Assembly (NCBI GenBank): GCA_018398765.1
Contig: JAHBMJ010005721.1
Span: forward strand, 1 to 29,109
Reading direction: 5' to 3'
Source of the DNA: Chromera velia
Lineage: Eukaryota; Sar; Chromeraceae
DNA: 29,109 bases
Each line of letters opens with the position of its first letter. The first letter of the stretch is position 1. This document shows positions 3,137 to 28,047 of this stretch, piece by piece. A program made the position numbers and the translations under genes. The notes under the pieces are model-generated. The model was not told the DNA's origin. It worked only from the letters and a program-made list of their open reading frames with translations, and did no database searches.

Positions 3137-5923
3137 TTACAAATCCCACTGAGGTCCATGGCTCTTTGCCAAACGTGACCTCCTCAGTTTGCGTCTGAAC
3201 GCCATTAGAGGCAGAGACAGCAGGAGAGCGATTGCAGTGCCAACCCGGGCCGGAGTCACCTGTTTTTTCGCTGTCCGGCTGAGCATCTGGATCCATTCGC
3301 CGTCTCCCCACACAAATTGGCCCAGCCACGCGCTCCTCTGAGGTCCCAGAAGAGGGTAGAGACTCTGCAAAATCCATCTCTGCCCGGATCTGAAGATCTC
3401 CCGAGCACCCTTGTCGCTCAACACAGAAAAGGGCAGCGCGGATGCACCCCACTGAGATACGATGGCGCCATCAACAACCAAACGCTCGCCGTGTAGGACC
3501 ACAGGGGCGAACAGGCCCTCACCCCTGACTGAAGTCACGGCGACAACCTCAGACCACTCCACTCCCTTCGAGTCCCCAGACTGCACCACCCCCACAAAAT
3601 CCCCAGCCTTTACGTCACCCGCACGGACCGTCTCCTCTTCTCTTTCCATCTCCGTTCCGACTTTCCCCCTCACCACAGGCACAAAATGGCCCGAAGTCAC
3701 GGTGACAGAGTGCCCCGTCACTGTCTCGATCCTGCGAAATTCCTTGACGAAAGAACCCCCGGCAGAGTCGAAGGACTCATGATAGGCACCCAGTTCTCTT
3801 TTCTGTTCCCTTTGTCTCTCGGCAGGGATGCGGAAGGCAAAGAACGCCACTGGAGAGAACGAAGAGACTCCAGAAGAATCGACCGTTAAGATTCTGTCCC
3901 CAACCTGCACAGGCAAACCAAGAAAGACACAAGCGCATGCAGGGATGCAGAAGGCAAAGAGAGACAGAGACGGAGAGAGCAACGAGTAAGGACAGAACGG
4001 TAGACAGAATGAAAGTAGATCAAGTGATCCCCGGCCGCTAACCGCAAAAGGATTTGAGAAAGTACGTCAATCGATCAAGCTGGGACATCCCCTCTCTGTT
4101 TGCCTTCATAAACTTTCTGAGTGACGGCCGATTCCCCCCATGTATGTCCCTTTTCATCTCTTCATAAAACCTCTCTCCCTCCCCCTCTCCCCTAGTTGAC
4201 TGACGCACCTCCAACTGTTCCATCGACTTGATGCCCGAGGTCTCTTCTATCACAGAGGCGAAAGAGGGGAAACAACTGCCACCACCCCCACTGCTAGCGG
4301 CAGGTGCGCTCCCGTCTGCCCCGGCAGTCTGAGCGTTCTGTCCTGTCGCGCTCTGTCCGTTGGCCTGAGCACCCACACACAACCACACACACACACACAC
4401 ACACACAGGGGCGGAGAGACAAAGAGAGAGAGAGCGCGAGAGACAGCGAGAGAACAGAAAGCACAAGGATTTTCCTTCCTTTCCAGTCCCGTCAATCAAT
4501 CAGGTGATTGATTATCAGAGAGTTGGGGCACAAAGGGAACAAAGCGGATGAGTTGATCTGATAGAGAATCGAAGATCTGAAAGGATAAAATCAAAACACC
4601 CAGCCACAGGAAGGGATCAAGAAGAAGGAGGAAGCACAGGTAAATTTTGTTCCGAGAGTCCGCATGAACGTGTAGATGCCCACATAGGCCACAACAGAAA
4701 GGGCAAGCATGACCATGCATGAGGTACAAGTTGTCCAAAGTAGATGCTATTTCTTCTGTCTGTATGAGTCAAGCAGTGAACAGAACGACCGCAGGGTCAG
4801 GTGAAAGAGCCCGGATGGATGCGGACGCGGCCTAAGGACAAACACGCAGATTAATTACTGAGCGGAGCATTCTGTGGATTAGTCCTCTAGCCGGCTCTGT
4901 ACTGGGCTCTCTTTCTCCTTTCAGTTTTTTCATTCATTTTTTCGTTCTTCCCAACACACCTGTTTAGCTCCCCCTTGCTGTTGCTGTCCGTTCATCCCGT
5001 TCTGCTGCTGCTGCCCCTGTTGACTTCCTCCCATGCCGCCGTCCTGCCCCCCCCCCATGCCCCCCGACTGGCCCCCCGCCCCCGGGCCCCCTGCTCCCGG
5101 CATGCCCGGCATACCCATCCCGGGTGGGCCCTGCAGGACGTCAATGGAGACATTTAAGGTGGACACGCAGACAGGAAGTACACACATATGTACACCCAAA
5201 AAGACATGGACTGTCACGGATACACATAGACACTGCAAGAGAGAGACTAAGAGAGAGAAATCCGAGGAAAGCATGAATTGAGGAGCTGACGAACCATTCC
5301 GGGAAGAAACTCCTGCTGGCCTCTTCCTTCGTGCTCGTCCGGTTGTTGCTGCTGCTGTTGTATGGTCGTCGTCTTCTGGTCCTCCTTGGTGTTTCCGTTT
5401 GTCTTCACCTCGATGCCGTGTCTTCTCTTCTCATGATGGGAGGAGCCTCCATGGTCCTGAAGAAAGTCTGGAACCAGAGCACTGCAAGCAGTGGAATACA
5501 GGGCGAGCGATACTGGAGAAGGGATCTAAGAGCAACGCAGAGATATGAACATGTATGCACTGGCAGCAAACATGCGACGCCCATGGCAGCAAAGATCTGG
5601 AGATAAAGCGAATGTTTGACCAGAGAACCCTCACAGTCTTTTTACAGATCTCAGCCTCTGCTGGACTGATGAACATTGCCTGTCTGAGTGATAGGGTGGG
5701 TCTTGTTTTGGTCGGAGTTGCGCCTGCATGTATCCACGATCGATTGTCTGACCTTGTTTTCCCTTCCGGATTGACGGCGACTTCGATTCCCAAACTGCAG
5801 AGAGAAGCAAGAAAGAAGAAGGTTGAGCAAAGTGGGGAAAGAGATTGTGGACATGATGCAATCGAGGTGAGCTGACCACAGGGTGCAGAGCCCCAGTAGG
5901 AGACACACACCGCCACTCTTCAT
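3137..5923 (-). CDS. Secreted Hint (Hedgehog/intein-type) domain protein, five exons
   Basis: Exons (minus strand, all phase 0): 5923-5753, 5456-5295, 5130-4960, 4364-4209, 3904-3137; 475 residues. The first ATG is followed by a hydrophobic signal peptide (MKSGGVCLLLGLCTLWS). Residues about 110-195 are Gly/Met/Gln-rich low complexity. The Hint domain runs from Cys199 (SCFPSFASV), the expected nucleophile, through EVGDRILTVD across the last junction, to a TxxH motif (T290-S-G-H293), then GLFAPVVLHG and VVDGAIVSQW (about 350-372). In animal Hedgehog the last block reads like ASCYA; the Cys is absent here. Known Hint domains cleave their own chain before Cys1 through a thioester; activity here is inference. 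A hydrophobic stretch at about 441-456 followed by RRKLRRSR suggests a C-terminal membrane anchor. No Hedgehog signalling domain is seen. Exon 1 contains an internal CTCTGCAG, so its 5' half could hide another intron. Confidence 0.85.
4381..4406. repeat. CA/TG microsatellite before a splice acceptor
   Basis: A CA run on the plus strand is a TG run in the minus-strand intron. It ends about 15 bases before the GCTCAG acceptor of Hint-gene exon 4 (exon starts at 4364). Confidence 0.9.
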
Positions 5924-11766: not shown

Positions 11767-12417
11767 TCACTCTGCCCCCCCCGCAGCAGCTGTGCCTGTG
11801 CCTGTGGCTGTGCCTGTGCAGTTGTGGAATGTCCTGGTTGGGTTGGCTGAGCGGAAGGTCTCGCACCTAGAGGACTGGAAGGTCTTTGTGGCCCCCCGGG
11901 GCTCCAGGTGGTTCTGTGAGTGGAGCGTCTCGTGGTGGACTCTGGTCTGGTGGTGATGGATGTCCCTGACGTGCACTATCTGCACCATGAGATAGAGCCA
12001 CAGGGACGGAAGGAAGGCAGAAAGGAAGAACGTGCAAGGAAGGGGGGGGCTGTTTGGTTTGGCTCCGAGGATGTGCCACTCACTGCCTGTGTGCATGCTT
12101 TCTTTTCAAGCGACATGATGACCGATTCTTTGCTGGTCGTAGACAATGGTATGCGTGGATGGGTGGGCGGGTGCGAGTGTCGGCGCCTTCTGATCGCACT
12201 TTTTAAATGAACAGATTGATGGAGAACAGATGCATAAATGGATGCAGGGGAAGTGACTCTGATTGCATCCCTCCCTCCCTCCCTCCCTTCCTTCCTTCCT
12301 TCCTTCCTTCCCTCCTTCCTTCCTTCCTTCCTTCCTTCCTTCCTCCCTTCCTTCCTTTCTTCCTTGCTTCCTTCCTTCCTTCCGTGCTTCCTCTCTCCCC
12401 CCCTCCTTCTGACTGTT

Positions 12418-13820: not shown

Positions 13821-14373
13821 GATTGATTTCCCTGGCTGGTTCTCTGGAGGTCCTTGTTACAGCAATGCAGTTCAAAGACCAACACGACACGATGTTGTCG
13901 ATGATACACCGTGCAAAGATGGAACGACAGAAGGCGTTAATTCATCATTTCAAAAAAAAAAAAACGTCTCACCTGTCTCGAACGTGCATGTACATGATGT
14001 GTACATGCACTCATGCAGCAGATGCATCCAAAGGGGCCCCGGCATGGATCATCGCGTTCTGAGCATGCATCAAGCAGAATTCAAGGCCGGGGCCCGGCAT
14101 GCAATTATCCGGCGGAAGAAACACGCGTTGCACAGGTGCGAAATCATATCTTCAAGCAACAGACACGCACCTTTCCCTTTGCCAAATCAAGTCTCATTGC
14201 ATCTCAGTGATCTCTGTTTTCTACGGCAGCCACCGAACAGGCGCGACGTATTGAAAGCCAACAAAGTCCCCATCATCCATTTGTTCGTTCCCTGAGCGTT
14301 GATCATTTCCTGCGCACCGTTTGATCGATCCGCTTGCTTGACCTGTCACGAGAACCTGTTACGGCCAAAAGCA
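13821..14373. other. Divergent intergenic region between His-rich gene and secreted protein gene
   Basis: This 553-base stretch separates two divergently transcribed genes and must hold both promoters. It contains an A12 run near 13951, a perfect 11-bp hairpin at 13984-14010, and TGCATGC-type motifs near 14065 and 14097. No TATA box is obvious. Confidence 0.5.
13984..14010. promoter_or_regulatory. Perfect 11-bp inverted repeat containing TGCATG
   Basis: Arms GTGCATGTACA (13984-13994) and TGTACATGCAC (14000-14010) around a TGATG loop, between two divergent genes. It could be a paired transcription-factor site or an RNA hairpin; regulatory role is inference. Confidence 0.5.
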
Positions 14374-14784
14374 ATGTTGGGATTCTGGATCTTCTGTGTG
14401 GCACTCCTCTTCACACAAGGAGCATGGGCAGCCAACACGATGTGCTTCTACTCTGACGAGACATGCCAAACGAAGTTGTTCCAAGAAGAGTGCTACTCAA
14501 ATTGCTTTGCAGACCCAGGAGTACAAAACTCGTACTTCCTCCAGTTCCAGATGTCTGGAACAACACTCAAGCAAACGCTCCACAAAGACGAAAACTGCAA
14601 CACACTTGTCGATACAGCCACTTACCAAGAGAACGTCGAGAAGGACGCGTGCACACAACGTGTGTCCTACACGGGAACGTCCTCACAGGGCCTCTATTTT
14701 ATATACAGTGAAAGTGCGGCGGTTGCTGCCGCTTACTCCCCGTTGCTCCTGACTCTGTTGGGCTTCCTGGCGCTTTCAAGATGA
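14374..14784 (+). CDS. Secreted six-cysteine protein with GPI-anchor-like tail
   Basis: Single-exon gene of 136 residues. The ATG at 14374 is the first in frame. Residues 1-19 are a signal peptide (MLGFWIFCVALLFTQGAWA, cleavage likely before Ala20). The mature chain has six Cys (24, 31, 40, 44, 75, 93), enough for three disulfides, and many Tyr, Thr, Gln and Asn. The C-terminus has small residues (SESAAVAAA) then a hydrophobic run (PLLLTLLGFLAL) ending almost at the stop, as in GPI-anchored surface proteins. AATAAA at 14948 follows. No named family recognised. A plain type I membrane protein is the alternative, but almost no cytosolic tail remains. Confidence 0.75.
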   Translation: MLGFWIFCVALLFTQGAWAANTMCFYSDETCQTKLFQEECYSNCFADPGVQNSYFLQFQMSGTTLKQTLHKDENCNTLVDTATYQENVEKDACTQRVSYTGTSSQGLYFIYSESAAVAAAYSPLLLTLLGFLALSR

Positions 14785-18945: not shown

Positions 18946-21900
18946 ATGATCGTGGGATCTTTTTTGTTGGTTCTATTGTTTGCGTGTATCCGGGCATGGG
19001 GGGCTTTCGGGTGGCTGAGGGACAGAGGAGGTGGGAGAGTGAGGTGGAAGCCTCCCGAGGTATTGCTACATGAGATGAGAAGCCAGGGCCTCTATGCGGG
19101 AGTCGGTCAGCCCTCCCTGTCTTCAGGGAACCGGACGGAGACGGAGACGGGAGGGTGCGGGTTCTTTCTCGTCAGACCTGCCAGAAACGGCCTCTTCGTG
19201 CTCTTCCCGTTCGATCTCTTCGTCTCCAATTCTCTCTTCATACACGGTTAGCCGAATACCTGTGCCTGTCCAGCCGCTGCTGTTTCTTTCTTTTTGGGCA
19301 GACTCTCGACATCCGTCCTGTTCCAGTTCGGTTGACTTCTCTGTTGGGGTGCGCAGTATCTTTTCATGACCCATTTGTTGAGTGTGGTCTTTTGCGCACA
19401 CTCGAGACACTTCTCGGTATAGTCTGAGATTCTGATGAGTTTTTTCGATCAAGTGAGGTGTTAGTGAGGGAACGGGAATGCTCTCCACGAAGATACCCGT
19501 CCCCCCGACTCTGTTTAATTAAGACTGCCTGCAGGTGTGTGGTCCGAGATGCTGGTCCAGCTCTCTCTGTTGTTCCTCCCGGAGGGGGGGTGGGCCCTGG
19601 ACGTGGGTGCCAACATCGGGGCCTTCACCGTGCCTCTCGCACAGAGAGCAGGGAAGAAGGGAGGGGTTGTAGCCTTCGAGCCCTTCCGTCTGACTCACCA
19701 AGTGCTCACAACGAATGTGGCCCTCAACGGTCTGTCTGTCTGTCGGTTTCTCGAGTTGTTTTGTTTGTTTCTCCTGTCACACATGCACAGTCTGGGTGAA
19801 AGGAGAAGAGGAGCCTGGGCAAAGGCACATGTGGAGGGAGGGAGAGAGAGGGGGGGGGGGCAAGAGAGTAGGGAGTCCAAACTGACAGAGAAAAGACGGG
19901 CTAGAAACTAAAGAAAGAGAAGTAGGAATGACGAGGAATGGGCATCATAAATGCTAAATTGTGGTATATCGGCAGGCGCCTTCTTTCTTGTCTGCATGCC
20001 TTGTGCTTTTAGTATGCCACCCTTTCTTTGCCGATTCTTCTTCGTTTCCTTCTGCGCGCTCTCTCTCTCATGTTTTTTCTCCCTTCCTTCCGCTTTTTCT
20101 TCCTTCCTTTCGTTCTTTGTTTCCTATCTTCCCGCTTTCCTTTCTTTCCTCATTTGCTTCCTTCTTCTCTCTCGTTCTTGTGCATGCAGGACTCTCGAAT
20201 GTGCACACTTTTCTTTTTTTTCTTTTCTGTATGATGTGTGCATGCAGGACTCTCGAATGTGCACACTTTTCTTTTTTTTCTTTTCTGTATGATGTGTGCA
20301 TGCAGGACTCTCGAATGTGCACACTTTTCTTTTTTTCTTTTCTGTATGATGTGTGCATGCAGGACTCTCGAATGTGCACACTTTTCTTTTTTTTCTTTTC
20401 TGTATGATGTGTGCATGCAGGACTCTCGAATGTGCACACTTTTCAAGCTGCGGCCTCAAACACGACTGGGCGGATCTGCCTTCCTCTGGTGGACGCTTTC
20501 TCAATCGGTGAGTGGGTGGGTCGTTCTGTCGGTCTGTGTGTGTCTGTGTGGGACAGAGAGAAAGGGCTAGGGAGAAATGCTGAAGGATATCTGAGCAGGG
20601 TGGGTTGGGAAGGATTTTAAGGACAGTCAATCAGCACAAAAACAGAAAGCGCCTATCCCACAATTAAGGGTCGATCCGGTCTTTCTTTGGGGCGTGTTCG
20701 AACACAATTAAGGACGGCCTCATCCGCCCTGAATTTCTTCGGAATGAACTCGAATGCATTTGTGAGGAGCTTTCTTCCTTTCCCCTTCTTTCCCTTTTGG
20801 CACATTCAATCCAGCATTGTTGTAACGGTAGAGATTTTGCATGCCTGCGTCTGTGACTAACCGTGTTTCTTTCAGTGGTGGTGTATGTCTCTAGCTTTGC
20901 AGTGGTTTTCCTGCAGCGCATCGTTTTTCTTCAAGTCATTGAAAGACAACCTTCCTCAATCAGATGCGGCATGCAGATTCAGCGACCACCTAGGGAATGC
21001 ATGAGTGCATGAATGAATGAATGAATGAATGTGTGCAGCAAATCTCGGGGCCTCTTCTGTCAGATCTGAAAACGAAGGAGAAAATGAGGCCATGGAGGCC
21101 GACGGAACGAGTCGAGAGGGCAGCAGGAGGAAGGCGAGGGGGAGCAGGGAGAGCGGGTGGTCTCATCCTTCCTCGGTCAGCTGATCATGCAGACACGGAG
21201 GCAAAGAGGGAGACATTTTTTCAGATTTCCCTCCGGCTGCCTATCCAAGGGTATCCCTCGTCTCTTCCTCACTCTCCCTGCCTCCCTCGTGGCGCCTCTC
21301 TGCCTGTCTGCATACCTTGAAGGGCCCCGGCTCTCTCTCTCTCTCTCTTCCCGTCTCCATGTAGATAGACTGAATTGCTTTGGACGTAGCGCTCAAAACG
21401 CTTTTCCCAAGTGTGTCTTCTCCATCGCTCTTTGTCTCCCTGTTGTCTCTTTTTTTTTTTGCAGAGGTGCGAGGCCGTCGGCAAAGGAGAGGAAGTCGAC
21501 AGTTTGATGGTCGACTCTCTGAGGTTTGACAGGTGGGGGGGCTGCGTGGAAAGGAGGGTAGCTTGCTTCAAAGAGAATTAACTCAGCTGAGAGATCGAGG
21601 AGGAGAGAAAGGACAGAGTAACAATCGCAGATAGGCATTCAGGGATAAATGATCGAGGGAGAAAGAATGCGTACTCCGCCTTGTTTAAGCAGCCAGGCAA
21701 TATGTCTCCATGACACAGAAACGGCAAGATTGTTCTTTCTCCCCCCATGCATACATCTCTTTCTTCTGTGTGTGATTCCATTTGGTTAAGTCAGATCGGA
21801 TTAATTCGCATACAACATTCGATACCTTGCTTGGTATGCACACTGGTCCAACCTGCCTGGCTTCCTTTGTTCGTTCTCCCTTGCTTTCCCCTTGTAATGC

Positions 21901-21946
21901 ACGATCAACTGTAGACACACACACACACACACACACACACTCACGC

Positions 21947-21979
<33 letters not shown>

Positions 21980-22788
21980 GACACACAGACAGACAAAAAA
22001 TTTCCCTTGTTTCTTCCTCTGAATTTTCTACATAAATGCAGAGTTGACTTTGTGAAGATCGACGTGGAGGGGCACGAGCTGTCTGTGTTGCAGGGGGCTC
22101 TGCGCACTCTGATGGTCCACCGTCCCGTCGTTCTGGTGGAGACAGACTCGGCAGGGGCTGGGCAGATGTTTGGGGAAATGGGCTTCGACTGTCGGAAGAT
22201 CTTCAACCATCCTTACGGAGAAGGTCAGCAATTAAACTGCGTTTTCTTATTCAGTAGAAGATGGGGGGGGAAATTGCAACCCCACTCCCTGCCGGTGTGT
22301 CTTTGAAAAGATCACGTCTGTCCGCGAACCTCCAAATATCTCAAACTAGCTGGATTTCTATGGATGTTTTGGTTTAGAAAAAGCTCTCTTTCGTGTCCAT
22401 GGACTCCTTCAACTTGGTCCTGATTTGCACGTGCTCAATGGTAGAATACGATTTCATTCACTCTGTACTTCTTGCTCCTTGTAGGAGTGACCAAACGCGG
22501 AAAAAGGTCTTGCGTCTGTCTTATCAAGGAAGCTGTCTCCATAGTTTTCTGCATGTTCAAACTTACATGGATGCAGGTGTGGACAGAGGCAGCCCGACCA
22601 CCTTCTACCTTCCTGAAGAATACGAAAATCTGTTGTGCGTCCCAAAAGAAAGGCCCGAATTGATGGAACGAGGCTTAGCCTTCATTCTTGGTCGATTTCA
22701 AGCCTGGAAGGAAGAAATAAAAAACAAAGAAACCGCAAAGGCGCCACAAGTAGAAAGTACTGGAGAACTAACAGGTCAAACATCTTGA
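18946..22788 (+). CDS. FkbM-type SAM-dependent methyltransferase, membrane-anchored, seven exons
   Basis: Exons: 18946-19246, 19535-19729, 20421-20507, 21039-21175, 21465-21532, 22042-22223, 22577-22788; phases 1,1,1,0,2,1 join cleanly into 393 residues. The first ATG (18946) starts a hydrophobic signal-anchor (MIVGSFLLVLLFACIRAWG), suggesting a type II membrane protein of the ER/Golgi. The FkbM fold shows the SAM-binding motif LDVGANIGAF (about 122-131), VVAFEPFRLT, NVALNGLSNV, NLGASSV, and the hallmark VDFVKIDVEGHE (264-275), then LVETD. FkbM enzymes usually O-methylate sugars or small molecules; the substrate is unknown. About 45 charged, low-complexity residues (SENEGENEAMEADG...) interrupt the domain in exon 4. 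AATAAA follows at 22853. Upstream frames at 18904 begin with GTG and were not used. Confidence 0.9.
20184..20420 (+). repeat. 58-bp tandem repeat duplicating the exon 3 splice acceptor
   Basis: Five acceptors with the sequence GCATGCAG|GACTCTCGAATG fall at exon-side positions 20190, 20248, 20306, 20363 and 20421 (spacing 58, 58, 57, 58). Each unit carries the acceptor, the first 24 bases of exon 3, a T-rich tract and TGTATGATGTGT. Only the last copy leads into the full exon in frame. Confidence 0.95.
21914..21995. repeat. CA and GA microsatellites in FkbM intron 5
   Basis: (AC)n at about 21914-21940, (AG)n at 21948-21967, then degenerate CAGA/CACA steps. Confidence 0.9.
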
Positions 22789-23920: not shown

Positions 23921-26900
23921 ATGAAGAGACGGTACAAGGAGGCTTCACCGTCCTTCACCGTGTATGTGAACGGGCAGAAGCACGAGATCAAGGAGACAGA
24001 GGTGGACCCAGAGACAACAGTGCTGGAGTTCCTGAGGGAGAAGTGCAGGCTTACCGGCACGAAGCTCGGCTGTGGGGAGGGAGGGTGCGGCGCCTGTGCA
24101 GGTGAGCTGTAGGCAGAATAGAGCGGGGGGAGGCGGGGAGATAGGAAGGGAGTTGAAGAGAACAGGTGAGAGGGGGAGAGAAGGAAGAGGGAAAGAAGAG
24201 TGGATGATCTACAAGGTAGAAGGAGAGGAATGGCCTCAGGCAGAGAAAGGGAGACTTCTTTCTGCCTTTTTGTCTTCCCTTCCCTTACTAAGCCCGCCTC
24301 TCCAATCCAACAAGAGAAGAGTATTACGAACGTCTGCCATTCGGTGGTGTCTGGCTGTTCTCCTCCAGGCTGTCTTACTAATGAATTGAATTACATTTAA
24401 TGTATGCAGTGATGAGTACGAGAGTAAACACAGAGACCGGAACGATGGAACACAGGTCGGTCCGTCATCCTCTTCCTTTTCCTTTTGCTTCAAGCAGTAC
24501 GACAAATGGAGTCTTCTGGACAAATGTGTGTTTGGGTGTTTGTGTGTTTCTTGGCAGCAGGGCTGGTAGATCGTGCATTCGGGTCGGCTAATCGGATGCA
24601 GCGATTTTCTTCCTTCATTGGATAGACATTCGATCGGTGTGTGCGACAAAACGGAGGTGCTGTTCGTCTGTCTGTATGTCATCTCTGTCCGTGTTTCCCT
24701 TTTCTTCGTGCAGGTCTTTCAACGCCTGTCTGACTCCCCTTCTGACAATGCACAACTGTGCGATCACCACGGTGGAAGGTGGGTGAGGTCATGGGGCATC
24801 CTGAGAAGAGAGGAGAAGAGAAAAGAGAAGAGAAGAGAGAGAAGGGAAAGCAGGAAGAGAGAGAGGACACGGGGGGACAAATTTGATTGTCCAACGCAGC
24901 CATTCATTCCTTCATTCAGTACTCTCACATTTTAGTGGAGTGGAGCTATGGGGCGTCGGATCCTCCTGTTCTTTTTCTCTCCTCTCCAAACAAATGGATC
25001 TCCCTCCCTCCCGTTCTGCCCCCCTCCCTCCTCCTCCTTCTTGCAGGTTTGAGTTCTGAGGGAAGCAGCGGCCCTTCCATGAGCCTCCATCCTATCCAGA
25101 AGGTCGCTCCGTCCCTCTATCTATCTATCTATCTATCTATCTATACATCGATACTCTCTGTCTATACATCGATACTCTCTGTCTGTCTGTTTATGCCTGG
25201 ATCGGGCTGCATCCAATACGTACAGAGAAAGGGTATTCTGTTAGAGAGCAGATGGGAGGATGCAGAATGTATTTCGGGCAAGATGATCCTCTCTCCCCCT
25301 CTTTTCGCTTCCCCTCATCACCGTTAGCTCATGCCTCTCTGGGGATGCGGTTGCCTGGGTCTATTCATTGACTCACTCACTGTCGGACCACGTGATTCCC
25401 CCCCCTCGATCGGCTGTCTGTCTACCTGCCTGTCTACCTGCAGGTCCTTTCAGACAGCCACGGCAGCCAATGCGGCTTCTGCACGCCTGGCATTGTCATG
25501 GCCTTGTACGCAAAGCACATGGCCACGAAGGTGAGTCGAGTCTGTCTCGATGAAGAGAAGAAGGTGATGCTGATGGGATAACATAAGCATCGATGGATCC
25601 CCCCACAGATTGATTGATCCAATTTCAGAACATGCATACTTCAATTCACATTAACGACATGACCGCGAAGGTTCAGTGGAAGTCAACCCAGAGGGGCTCC
25701 GTGGAAAGAGCAGGGAGGAGATGGAAGGAAAGAGAAGACCTACAAGACCCGAATGGTGTGGGTTCTCTCTCTCTGACGGACTGTCCCTCCTGGCTCCTCA
25801 TCCATGCAGATTGATATCATGGCACCGGACCTTCTCCTCCCTCCCTCCCACCCTTTTGTCCCCACGTTCCCTTCCCTTCTTCCCTCCTCCTTTTTTCTTT
25901 TTTGTGCAGGCTGAGGGTCGTGAGATGGATAGCGAGGATGTTGTGGCGGCTCTCGACGGGAATCTCTGCAGATGTACAGGTTCGTGCATTCGTTGAAAGG
26001 GGGGGGAGGGGAGTGGTGGTTTTCGTTTGGGTGCATATAAGCTGGCTTGATGGTTGTCTGTGTGTTTGTGTGTTCTGTTCCTGTGCTGCCCGCCTGCAGG
26101 CTACAGGCCGATTCTGCAGGCCTTCAACGCTGTCGATCGGTCGGAGACGGCAGAGCACTCTGAGGTCTGTCTGGAGGCTTCCTCTCCTCGATTGCTTTCT
26201 CTGTCGTATAAGGGAGAGCAACGGATCGCCTCTTCATTCTCATTCTGTGCCCATTGACATTTGGAAAGTGCGCGCTCGACAGATTGTGTTCGTGAGTTTT
26301 TGCTGAGAAAGGCAAGACAGCTCCAGGAAAGGGAAGGAGGGAAAACAAGAGCAGAGCAGGAAAAGACGAAACGGGAGAAGCTTATCTCCTTTAACTTTTC
26401 CTTTTGGCGGGTATACATCACCCTACCTTCCCCTCTCTTTCTTCCCCTTTGTTCCTCGTGTGAGTTGATTACCTGGACCTGTGATGTGCAGAACGGGCAT
26501 CAGGCCAACGGTGTGCACTGCAACGGCACCTCGCACTCGCATCACCACGGGCATGCGAATGGAGTGGCCAACGGGACGGGAGGGAAGGGGTGTGGGCACA
26601 GGGGCAGTGGAGACGGGTGTGGCCAGCAGAATGGGCACGCGGGGGGGCACTGCAAGGGAAAGGGGGAAGGGAAACACTGCGGGAAGTCTTTGCAGCTGTG
26701 CGAGAGGAGTGGAGAGAAGTCTGCCGGCTGGATGTGAGTTTCTTTTTTTGTGTCCTGTCTGTCGGGCATTCGGTTTCTTTCAACAATTTGTTCGTTCATC
26801 TCCTTCACTTTCTTTTTTTGTGTCCTGTCTGTCGGGCATTCGGTTTCTTTCAACAATTTGTTCGTTGATCTCCTTCACTTTCTTTTTTTGTGTCCTGTCT

Positions 26901-28047
26901 GTCGGGCATTCGGTTTCTTTCAACAATTTGTTCGTTCATCTCCTTCATTTTCTTTTTTTGTGTCCTGTCTGTCGGGCATTCGGTTTCTTTCAACAATTTG
27001 TTCGTTCATCTCCTTCACTTTCTTTTTTTGTGTCCTGTCTGTCGGGCATTCGGTTTCTTTCAACAATTTGTTCGTTCATCTCCTTCACTCAGCTTCCTTC
27101 CTTCCTACGTTCTTTCTTCTCTTCGTGGACGGATACACAAAAACCAAGGGAGAGAGGGAAGAGGGAAGGGAAACGAGGAGACTGTTTCCTTTTGCCTCGC
27201 CATGTCCTTTCATTGGGCTCGTCTGCTCGCTTATAGCCCCAGTTATGGGTCTTCGTGTGAGTGTTTCTGCGCTTCCTGTGTTGTTTTATCTGTCTCTTTG
27301 TGCCGTACCATGCTGACTTTTGCTTCCCTTCATTCCCTTCCCTTCCCTCCTTTTCTTCTCTCTCTGGTATGTGTCAGGGTCGAGCACGAGAGGCAGCAAG
27401 GAAAAGTGTTCGAACGACTCCTGGAGGCAGTGACTGGAGGGGAAGGGAAGGAGAAGGAGAAGAAGGAGAGCTTCGTGGCTGCAGGGGAAGCTGCTCCCCT
27501 TTATTTCTCGGGGAACCACCTCGGGAAGGAGGTCGAATGGTCAGTTTGTGTGTTTGTTTGTTTGTGTCCGTCAGATGAAGAACAAACACATCCGTATCGA
27601 CATCTTGTGACAGATGAGGTGGTGAGCAAGGTCTTTCTGAAAAAACAAATGAGGATGGCTTCTCGATCGTGCAGAGGGAAGTTTCTTGCAGGCATTCTTT
27701 GGAATTTCAGGAATGGAGGCAGGAATGGAGTTAGAAACAAAAGCAGAACTCCAACTGAACGGAAGGATCCCTTCTGTCTCTCGATCACTTCTCTGATCTC
27801 ATCTCATCTCATCTCATCCCCCTCAGGTTCACCCCCTCTCGGCTTGAGGATCTCCTCTCAGTTGTGGAACTGTACAGGAGGACAGAGAGGCCCTTCAAAC
27901 TACTCGTCAGTCGTCACTCTGTACTGTACGCCAATGGCCCGAAAGCCCCTCCATTTGTTTTTTGAGCTTGTCTGTCTGTCTGGTGTGCGTCTCCATCTGA
28001 TCCGAAGCCAAGTCTTTCCTTCTCTTCCTTCGTCTTCGACATTTGGT

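Follow-up and report, generated by a model that had tools for sequence, protein, structure and literature searches.

In animal Hedgehog proteins, a thioester is formed by Cys1 of the Hint domain, and Asp46 (D303) has the double role of restraining Cys1 and of activating cholesterol. Changes at position 46 (to Ala, His and other residues) have been studied in engineered Hedgehog mutants (PMC9163320, PMC13060885). The D303A variant was described to keep DTT-mediated cleavage with loss of full cholesterol transfer, and the D303H variant of Drosophila Hh to keep activity with a widened set of substrates (PMC9163320). According to a preprint, the D46A substitution makes thiolysis by the frog and fish domains 2-6 fold faster and blocks their use of cholesterol, and none of the D46A variants made from fly, frog, fish and human domains accepts cholesterol (PMC13060885).

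Hog proteins of protists (dinoflagellates, Cryptosporidium, red algae, jakobids and haptophytes) were described as combining a signal peptide, where the start is known, with a lineage-specific N-terminus and the Hog part; many of the N-termini contain conserved cysteines, and in some of the proteins the Cys of motif J is replaced (Burglin 2008, PMC2362128). In the protist Hog text of that paper (sections 9 and 16), position 46 and the C-terminal tetrapeptides are not discussed. Extracellular proteins with HINT domains were also reported for chromerids, photosynthetic algae related to the malaria parasites and probably the organism group of the present gene, in a single sentence that gives the HINT domain as shared with Cryptosporidium and Gregarina and contains no residue analysis (eLife 2015, PMC4501334). 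The synthetic system RELEASE (Retained Endoplasmic Cleavable Secretion) provides a third term of comparison: a protein is held in the endoplasmic reticulum (ER) until a cut by specific proteases frees the cargo (PMC8854555).

The window, which is the whole stretch of 29,109 nucleotides analysed here, contains a gene for a protein that resembles animal Hedgehog (1AT0/6TYY/6TD6, 7E2I) in its Hint domain as detected by profile, in Cys1, the TxxH motif and a G-x-x-x-P block near the Hint end, in a secretory-looking N-terminus and in the presence of a region after Hint. Unlike animal Hedgehog, it has no Pfam match to the Hedge domain, carries Phe in place of Asp46 and SQWG in place of SCYA, and belongs to a family the C-termini of which often end in [DE]L. 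That the arrangement departs from that of animal Hedgehog, as the earlier note had it, is correct, yet a signal peptide, a variable N-terminus and a Hog part had already been described for many protists in 2008 (PMC2362128). The window protein shares this arrangement with the protist Hog proteins, and differs from the many with conserved cysteines in having a low-complexity partner with no Cys among its 163 residues. By taking into account the features described below, we consider it somewhat more probable than the contrary that the gene encodes a Hog-type autoprocessing precursor, which would release its N-terminal part without cholesterol and the Hint half of which may be held in the ER.

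Gene model and the low-complexity partner

A single gene model of six exons, predicted from the genomic sequence, runs on the minus strand from 5923 to 3137 and would encode 456 amino acids, with GT-AG at all five introns; the ATG at 5923 and the stop codon at 3137 are present as they had been annotated. Exon 1 (5877..5923) contains the ATG and the signal-peptide-like MKSGGVCLLLGLCTL, and ends at the donor GTCAGCTC in phase 2. It is followed by exon 2 (5753..5794; acceptor CTCTGCAG, LGIEVAVNPEGKT, donor GTCAGACA), which at 42 nt could be skipped in frame. The partner segment is spread over exon 3 (5295..5481), with its hydrophilic part and a Gln run, exon 4 (4960..5130), with its Gly/Met/Gln-rich low-complexity part, which has no Pfam match, and the beginning of exon 5 (4209..4364), where an Ala/Ser/Gly-rich linker (...SSGGGGS) leads into the Hint start CFPSFASVIEETSGIKSMEQLE. 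Exon 6 (3137..3904) encodes the remaining part of Hint, the post-Hint region and the C-terminus up to the stop at 3137.

At the join that completes the Hint domain, exon 5 ends in ...MEQLE at the donor GTGCGTCAG, in phase 0, and continues with VGDRILTV of exon 6. The join (exons 4 and 5 in the earlier numbering of the exons) is supported at the sequence level because the joined Hint part scores 81.5 bits with Pfam Hint, compared with 61.1 bits when exon 6 is read alone as an open frame, and because the intron position, in phase 0 and just before (V/Y)GD, is common to three paralogues (L023, L026 and L030).

A codon-usage test, for which 11 paralogue frames (4373 codons) served as the training set, places the frame used above the other two forward frames in each of the six exons and gives negative scores to every one of the 15 forward frames in the five introns. 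Support is narrow for exon 4 (0.24 versus 0.21 and 0.18 for the other forward frames, with 0.23 reached on the other strand), while in exon 1 a frame of the opposite strand outscores the frame used (0.23 versus 0.13). The frame of exon 6 is open with a weak coding-like signal (0.11 versus 0.06 and −0.05), and over its last 180 nt the same test shows no signal.

The secreted start proposed earlier finds its counterpart in the N-terminal MKSGGVCLLLGLCTLC, which is secretory-looking by hydropathy (best 17-residue mean of the joined start, 2.35). Residues 17-179, 163 in all, include 41 Gly and 26 Gln, and Gly, Gln or Met make up 76% of residues 92-149, as expected from the earlier description of the partner as rich in Gly, Met and Gln. 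No Pfam family was matched by the partner segment in the joined protein, where Hint is the sole match at E up to 1; the Hedge signalling domain is likewise unmatched. When the protein was searched against its own genome (23 matches at E up to 10, of which 4 are the window gene itself), none of the matches at other places that are confined to residues 1-160 had an E value below 0.06. Some of the genome matches led by the Hint domain extend back into the linker, namely to residue 108 in L017 (E 4.6e-5), to residue 145 in L021 and to residue 141 in L022, probably as a consequence of low complexity.

Other features of the window were observed on the plus strand, where an FkbM-type methyltransferase (PF05050) is probably encoded by exons at 19519-19911 (E 0.00096, below the cut-off) and 21776-22306 (E 1.6e-10), and the open frame at 14296-14784 encodes a small cysteine-containing protein with, by eye, a signal-peptide-like start and a hydrophobic end similar to a GPI-anchor signal, and with no Pfam match. 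Tandem repeats are found at 26739-27089 (70 bp x 5.0, 98%), 20179-20444 (58 bp x 4.6, 99%) and 12270-12392 (CCTT x 30.8, 89%).

The Hint domain, its paralogues and position 46

The profile search supports the earlier assignment to a Hedgehog-like Hint, at the level of a sequence domain. On the joined protein, PF01079 (Hint) is matched over residues 171-351 with an E value of 1.8e-23 and 83.7 bits versus a curated cut-off of 29.7 bits (E 1.5e-16 for the open frame of exon 6 alone), and the CFPSF, VGD, TSGH and GLFAPVVLHG blocks are all present. Cys1, previously numbered Cys199, is residue 180 in the present model (codon 4272..4274, minus strand, as are all the coordinates of this gene), so that cleavage is predicted between Ser179 and Cys180. 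The TxxH motif is represented by TSGH (residues 271-274; 3686..3697), the Thr and His of which correspond to Thr69 and His72 of the Hh Hint domain. Phe225 (codon 3833..3835) aligns with Asp46 of Drosophila Hh, which serves there as general base for cholesterol. Soon after position 46, within residues 224-256 (about 3838-3740), lies an insertion of approximately 20 residues, a length found in no other of the 14 members aligned. The region after Hint is present, with SQWG (3446..3457) in the place of the motif J SCYA, so that Gln takes the place of Cys143 (C400), and with a VWGDG block (3299..3313) that was recognized in the alignment of members.

The genome contains at least 15 Hint places above the cut-off, the window gene included, among 21 candidates scored (both counts are lower bounds). 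Fourteen members were aligned with Drosophila Hedgehog, five of the rows (window, L008, L011, L015 and L016) being manual joins across introns; L014/L028 was left out as its first Hint exon was not found, and by eye its exon reads FFGHR, with His near position 46. In the alignment, Cys1 and the His of TxxH are present in 14 of 14 members, and position 69 is Thr in eight and Ser in six. Asp is found at position 46 in none of the 14: eight members have Val there and four, L023 among them, have His, L017 has Met and the window protein has Phe. The Cys of motif J is likewise absent from all 14. A profile built from these members was compared with PDB chains and found to score Drosophila Hedgehog (6td6, 1.4e-28; 6tyy, 2.4e-28; 1at0, 3.4e-27) and Sonic hedgehog (7e2i, 2.5e-20) far better than other Hint and intein-type chains, which reach only 0.0002 and weaker. 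Outside this genome, 14 plus 5 pattern matches were obtained in viral and genome contigs (viral, bacterial and archaeal), none of which is a relative by tblastn at E 1e-3.

In a tree calculated from rows cut by pattern (L018 and L021 were cut late, so that some post-Hint residues are included), the ten rows with Phe, Met or Val at position 46 lie on one side of a branch with support 88/89, which is found in 86% of 200 bootstrap trees. The four His-46 rows, between which the Drosophila row is placed, do not form a supported group (46/0); the window row is nearest to L018 by path, on an open fork. The block after Hint is [VI]WGDG in eight and VWGNG in one of the ten Phe/Met/Val-46 rows, and is found in none of the four His-46 rows, some rows ending earlier. 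The partners vary from member to member: they are cysteine-rich in L019 and L024, Ala/Pro/Gly-rich in L017 and very short in L027, while L020-L022 have a long cysteine-containing region and an acidic Pro-rich linker. A CC..C...YAC...C.....C...GCACD-like pattern before Hint was observed to be common to the N-terminal parts of L020, L021 and L022, two of which have nearly identical Hint parts. For the N-terminal parts of L019 and L021, Pfam gave no match with an E value of 0.01 or lower.

The combination of Phe at position 46 with the conserved Cys, Thr and His leads us to expect, by analogy with the engineered Hedgehog variants, a self-cleavage that would not use cholesterol. Two readings of the same residues compete with this expectation. 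It is improbable, in our estimate, that the protein transfers a sterol or lipid, so that a sterol or other alcohol attacks the thioester and the N-terminal part becomes lipid-anchored as in Hedgehog. In favour of such a reaction, Hint is followed by a region at the place of the sterol recognition region of Hh, and four paralogues carry the His46 with which Drosophila Hh keeps its activity on a wider range of substrates (D303H, PMC9163320). However, Phe at position 46 cannot be a general base, and the loss of cholesterol use in the D46A variants of all four animal domains (PMC13060885, preprint) also argues against it. Even less probable is a catalytically silent or decaying Hint domain in a protein that is secreted or exposed at the surface as a whole. 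The absence of Asp46 and of the motif J Cys, the insertion soon after position 46 and a low-complexity partner without separate relatives would all be consistent with decay, but Cys1, Thr and His are kept in the window protein, Cys1 and His persist in 14 of 14 members of a diverged family, and the frame of exon 6 is open with its weak coding-like codon signal. With respect to the favoured reading of an autoprocessing precursor, it should be considered that another residue could possibly replace Asp46, and that a non-catalytic Hint domain is possible.

The hydrophobic stretch and the KDEL-like ends

A transmembrane helix followed by a basic tail had been proposed for the C-terminus. A hydrophobic stretch, PARVGTAIALLLSLPLMAF, followed by basic residues is indeed found at 3197..3253, but as a helix it is only borderline, with a best 19-residue Kyte-Doolittle mean of 1.58. 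Its likely counterpart in L017 reaches 1.13, and five of the nine other tails do not exceed 1.29 (L017; L018, 0.85; L019, 0.91; L023, 0.84; L024, 1.29), the remaining ones giving 2.61 (the near-identical L020 and L022), 1.65 (L029) and 1.57 (L021). The stretch resembles the L017 tail, one of six tails compared, with 12 of 1000 shuffles scoring as high, and the genome search extends the L017 match to residue 431 of the window protein. A candidate splice (CAG/GTGACT) could remove the stretch with an intron of 65 or 111 nt: in the 111 nt version the protein would still end in QWDL, and in the 65 nt version it would acquire another tail, no closer to the six paralogue tails than are shuffles, of which 202 to 986 in 1000 score as high. 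The hydrophobic stretch may be a retained intron; the similarity to L017, seen in only one of the six tails, argues for its being coding.

These observations bear on the proposal that the window gene encodes a type I membrane protein, anchored by a helix at the C-terminus and with its basic tail in the cytosol, from which Hint cleavage would shed the N-terminal peptide while the stub stays in the membrane. The sequence RRKLRRSR after the hydrophobic stretch would suit a positively charged cytosolic side, the near-identical L020 and L022 combine their strong helix with a KKKQAA tail, and the similarity to L017, where no intron is needed, speaks for translation of the stretch. On the other hand, the hydropathy is borderline here and weaker in L017, L018, L019, L023 and L024 (0.84-1.29), the last 180 nt are those without codon signal, and an intron of 65 or 111 nt can be read through the region, so that a membrane stub appears to us unlikely.

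A possible alternative means of holding back the Hint half is the C-terminal tetrapeptide, QWDL (3140..3151), a degenerate KDEL-like end. Ends in [DE]L are found in seven of the 12 readable C-termini (QWDL of the window protein, KVEL, SVDL, GGEL, AGEL, GTEL and KNEL), versus at most three of 12 in 100,000 shuffles of the tails, a count that is not a probability because the members share ancestry. The KNEL end of L029 comes from an open frame further downstream that was attributed to this gene for its similarity, and L011, L014 and L016, which have no readable end, are outside the count of 12. Against KDEL-like holding in the ER, the other five of the 12 ends are without [DE]L (KQAA twice, ITGN, TCHI, the end of which is uncertain, and EEQE). 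With the pattern [KRHQSA]-[DENQ]-E-L, which we take to be that of KDEL-type retrieval, KNEL of L029 fits and QWDL of the window protein does not.

As to the machinery, seven matches to the KDEL-receptor family were found in the genome, some of which are exon pieces. Among 15 loci obtained from 38 HSP70 matches, only that on contig C786 (two overlapping loci) ends in HDEL, in what we infer to be the last exon of this HSP70. The use of PDI as a control for ER signals yielded no informative C-terminus in 20 loci of 39 thioredoxin-family matches. A bacterial-looking dnaK amid long open frames was also observed (L055, on C4039), by eye probably on a contaminant contig. KDEL-like RTDL and QTEL ends are known in MANF and CDNF, for which direct recognition by the receptor has been doubted (PMC4731063), and the mammalian KDEL receptor is selective at position −4 (PMC8248988). 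It follows that holding in the ER is plausible for L029 and L017, and weaker for the window protein. A further point is that QWDL would lie on the cytosolic side if the hydrophobic stretch is membrane-spanning.

Proposed processing and its implications

In the autoprocessing precursor that we favour, the Hint domain would, in the ER and by the chemistry of Hedgehog, convert the peptide bond between Ser179 and Cys180 into a thioester of Cys180. With Phe in place of the sterol-activating Asp46, this thioester would probably react with water or some other small nucleophile instead of cholesterol, and the N-terminal low-complexity peptide would be freed for export. It may further be suggested, less firmly, that the KDEL-like C-terminus or an association with the membrane keeps the Hint half in the ER, so that it is by self-cleavage that the N-terminal part could leave this compartment. 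A more general proposal, which we regard as rather doubtful, is that of a retain-and-release switch: a Hog lineage that lost the sterol-activating acid (Val, Met or Phe at position 46) and carries KDEL-like ends would use cholesterol-free self-cleavage to free a secreted cargo from an ER-held Hint half, thus gating export. The logic would be that of RELEASE, which is engineered and depends on specific proteases (PMC8854555); in the present case the cut would be autocatalytic and the retention is putative.

The combination of signal peptide, variable partner and Hint/Hog part in protists and the HINT proteins of chromerids were already known, and what was not found described is the absence of Asp46 from 14 of 14 aligned members, as read from their predicted sequences. 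Among the matches listed in searches of the open-licence literature for Hint with KDEL-like ends and for Hog in protists, the titles and the starts of the abstracts describe neither the series at position 46 nor the C-terminal pattern.

One genome provides a natural series at the decisive position 46, with Val, Met or Phe in ten members and His in four. The chemistry of these variants is predictable, and testable with existing FRET-type constructs, because the position has been studied in engineered Hedgehog mutants. Should these C-termini indeed retain the Hint half in the ER, engineered cleave-to-secrete circuits would have in this family a counterpart from nature.
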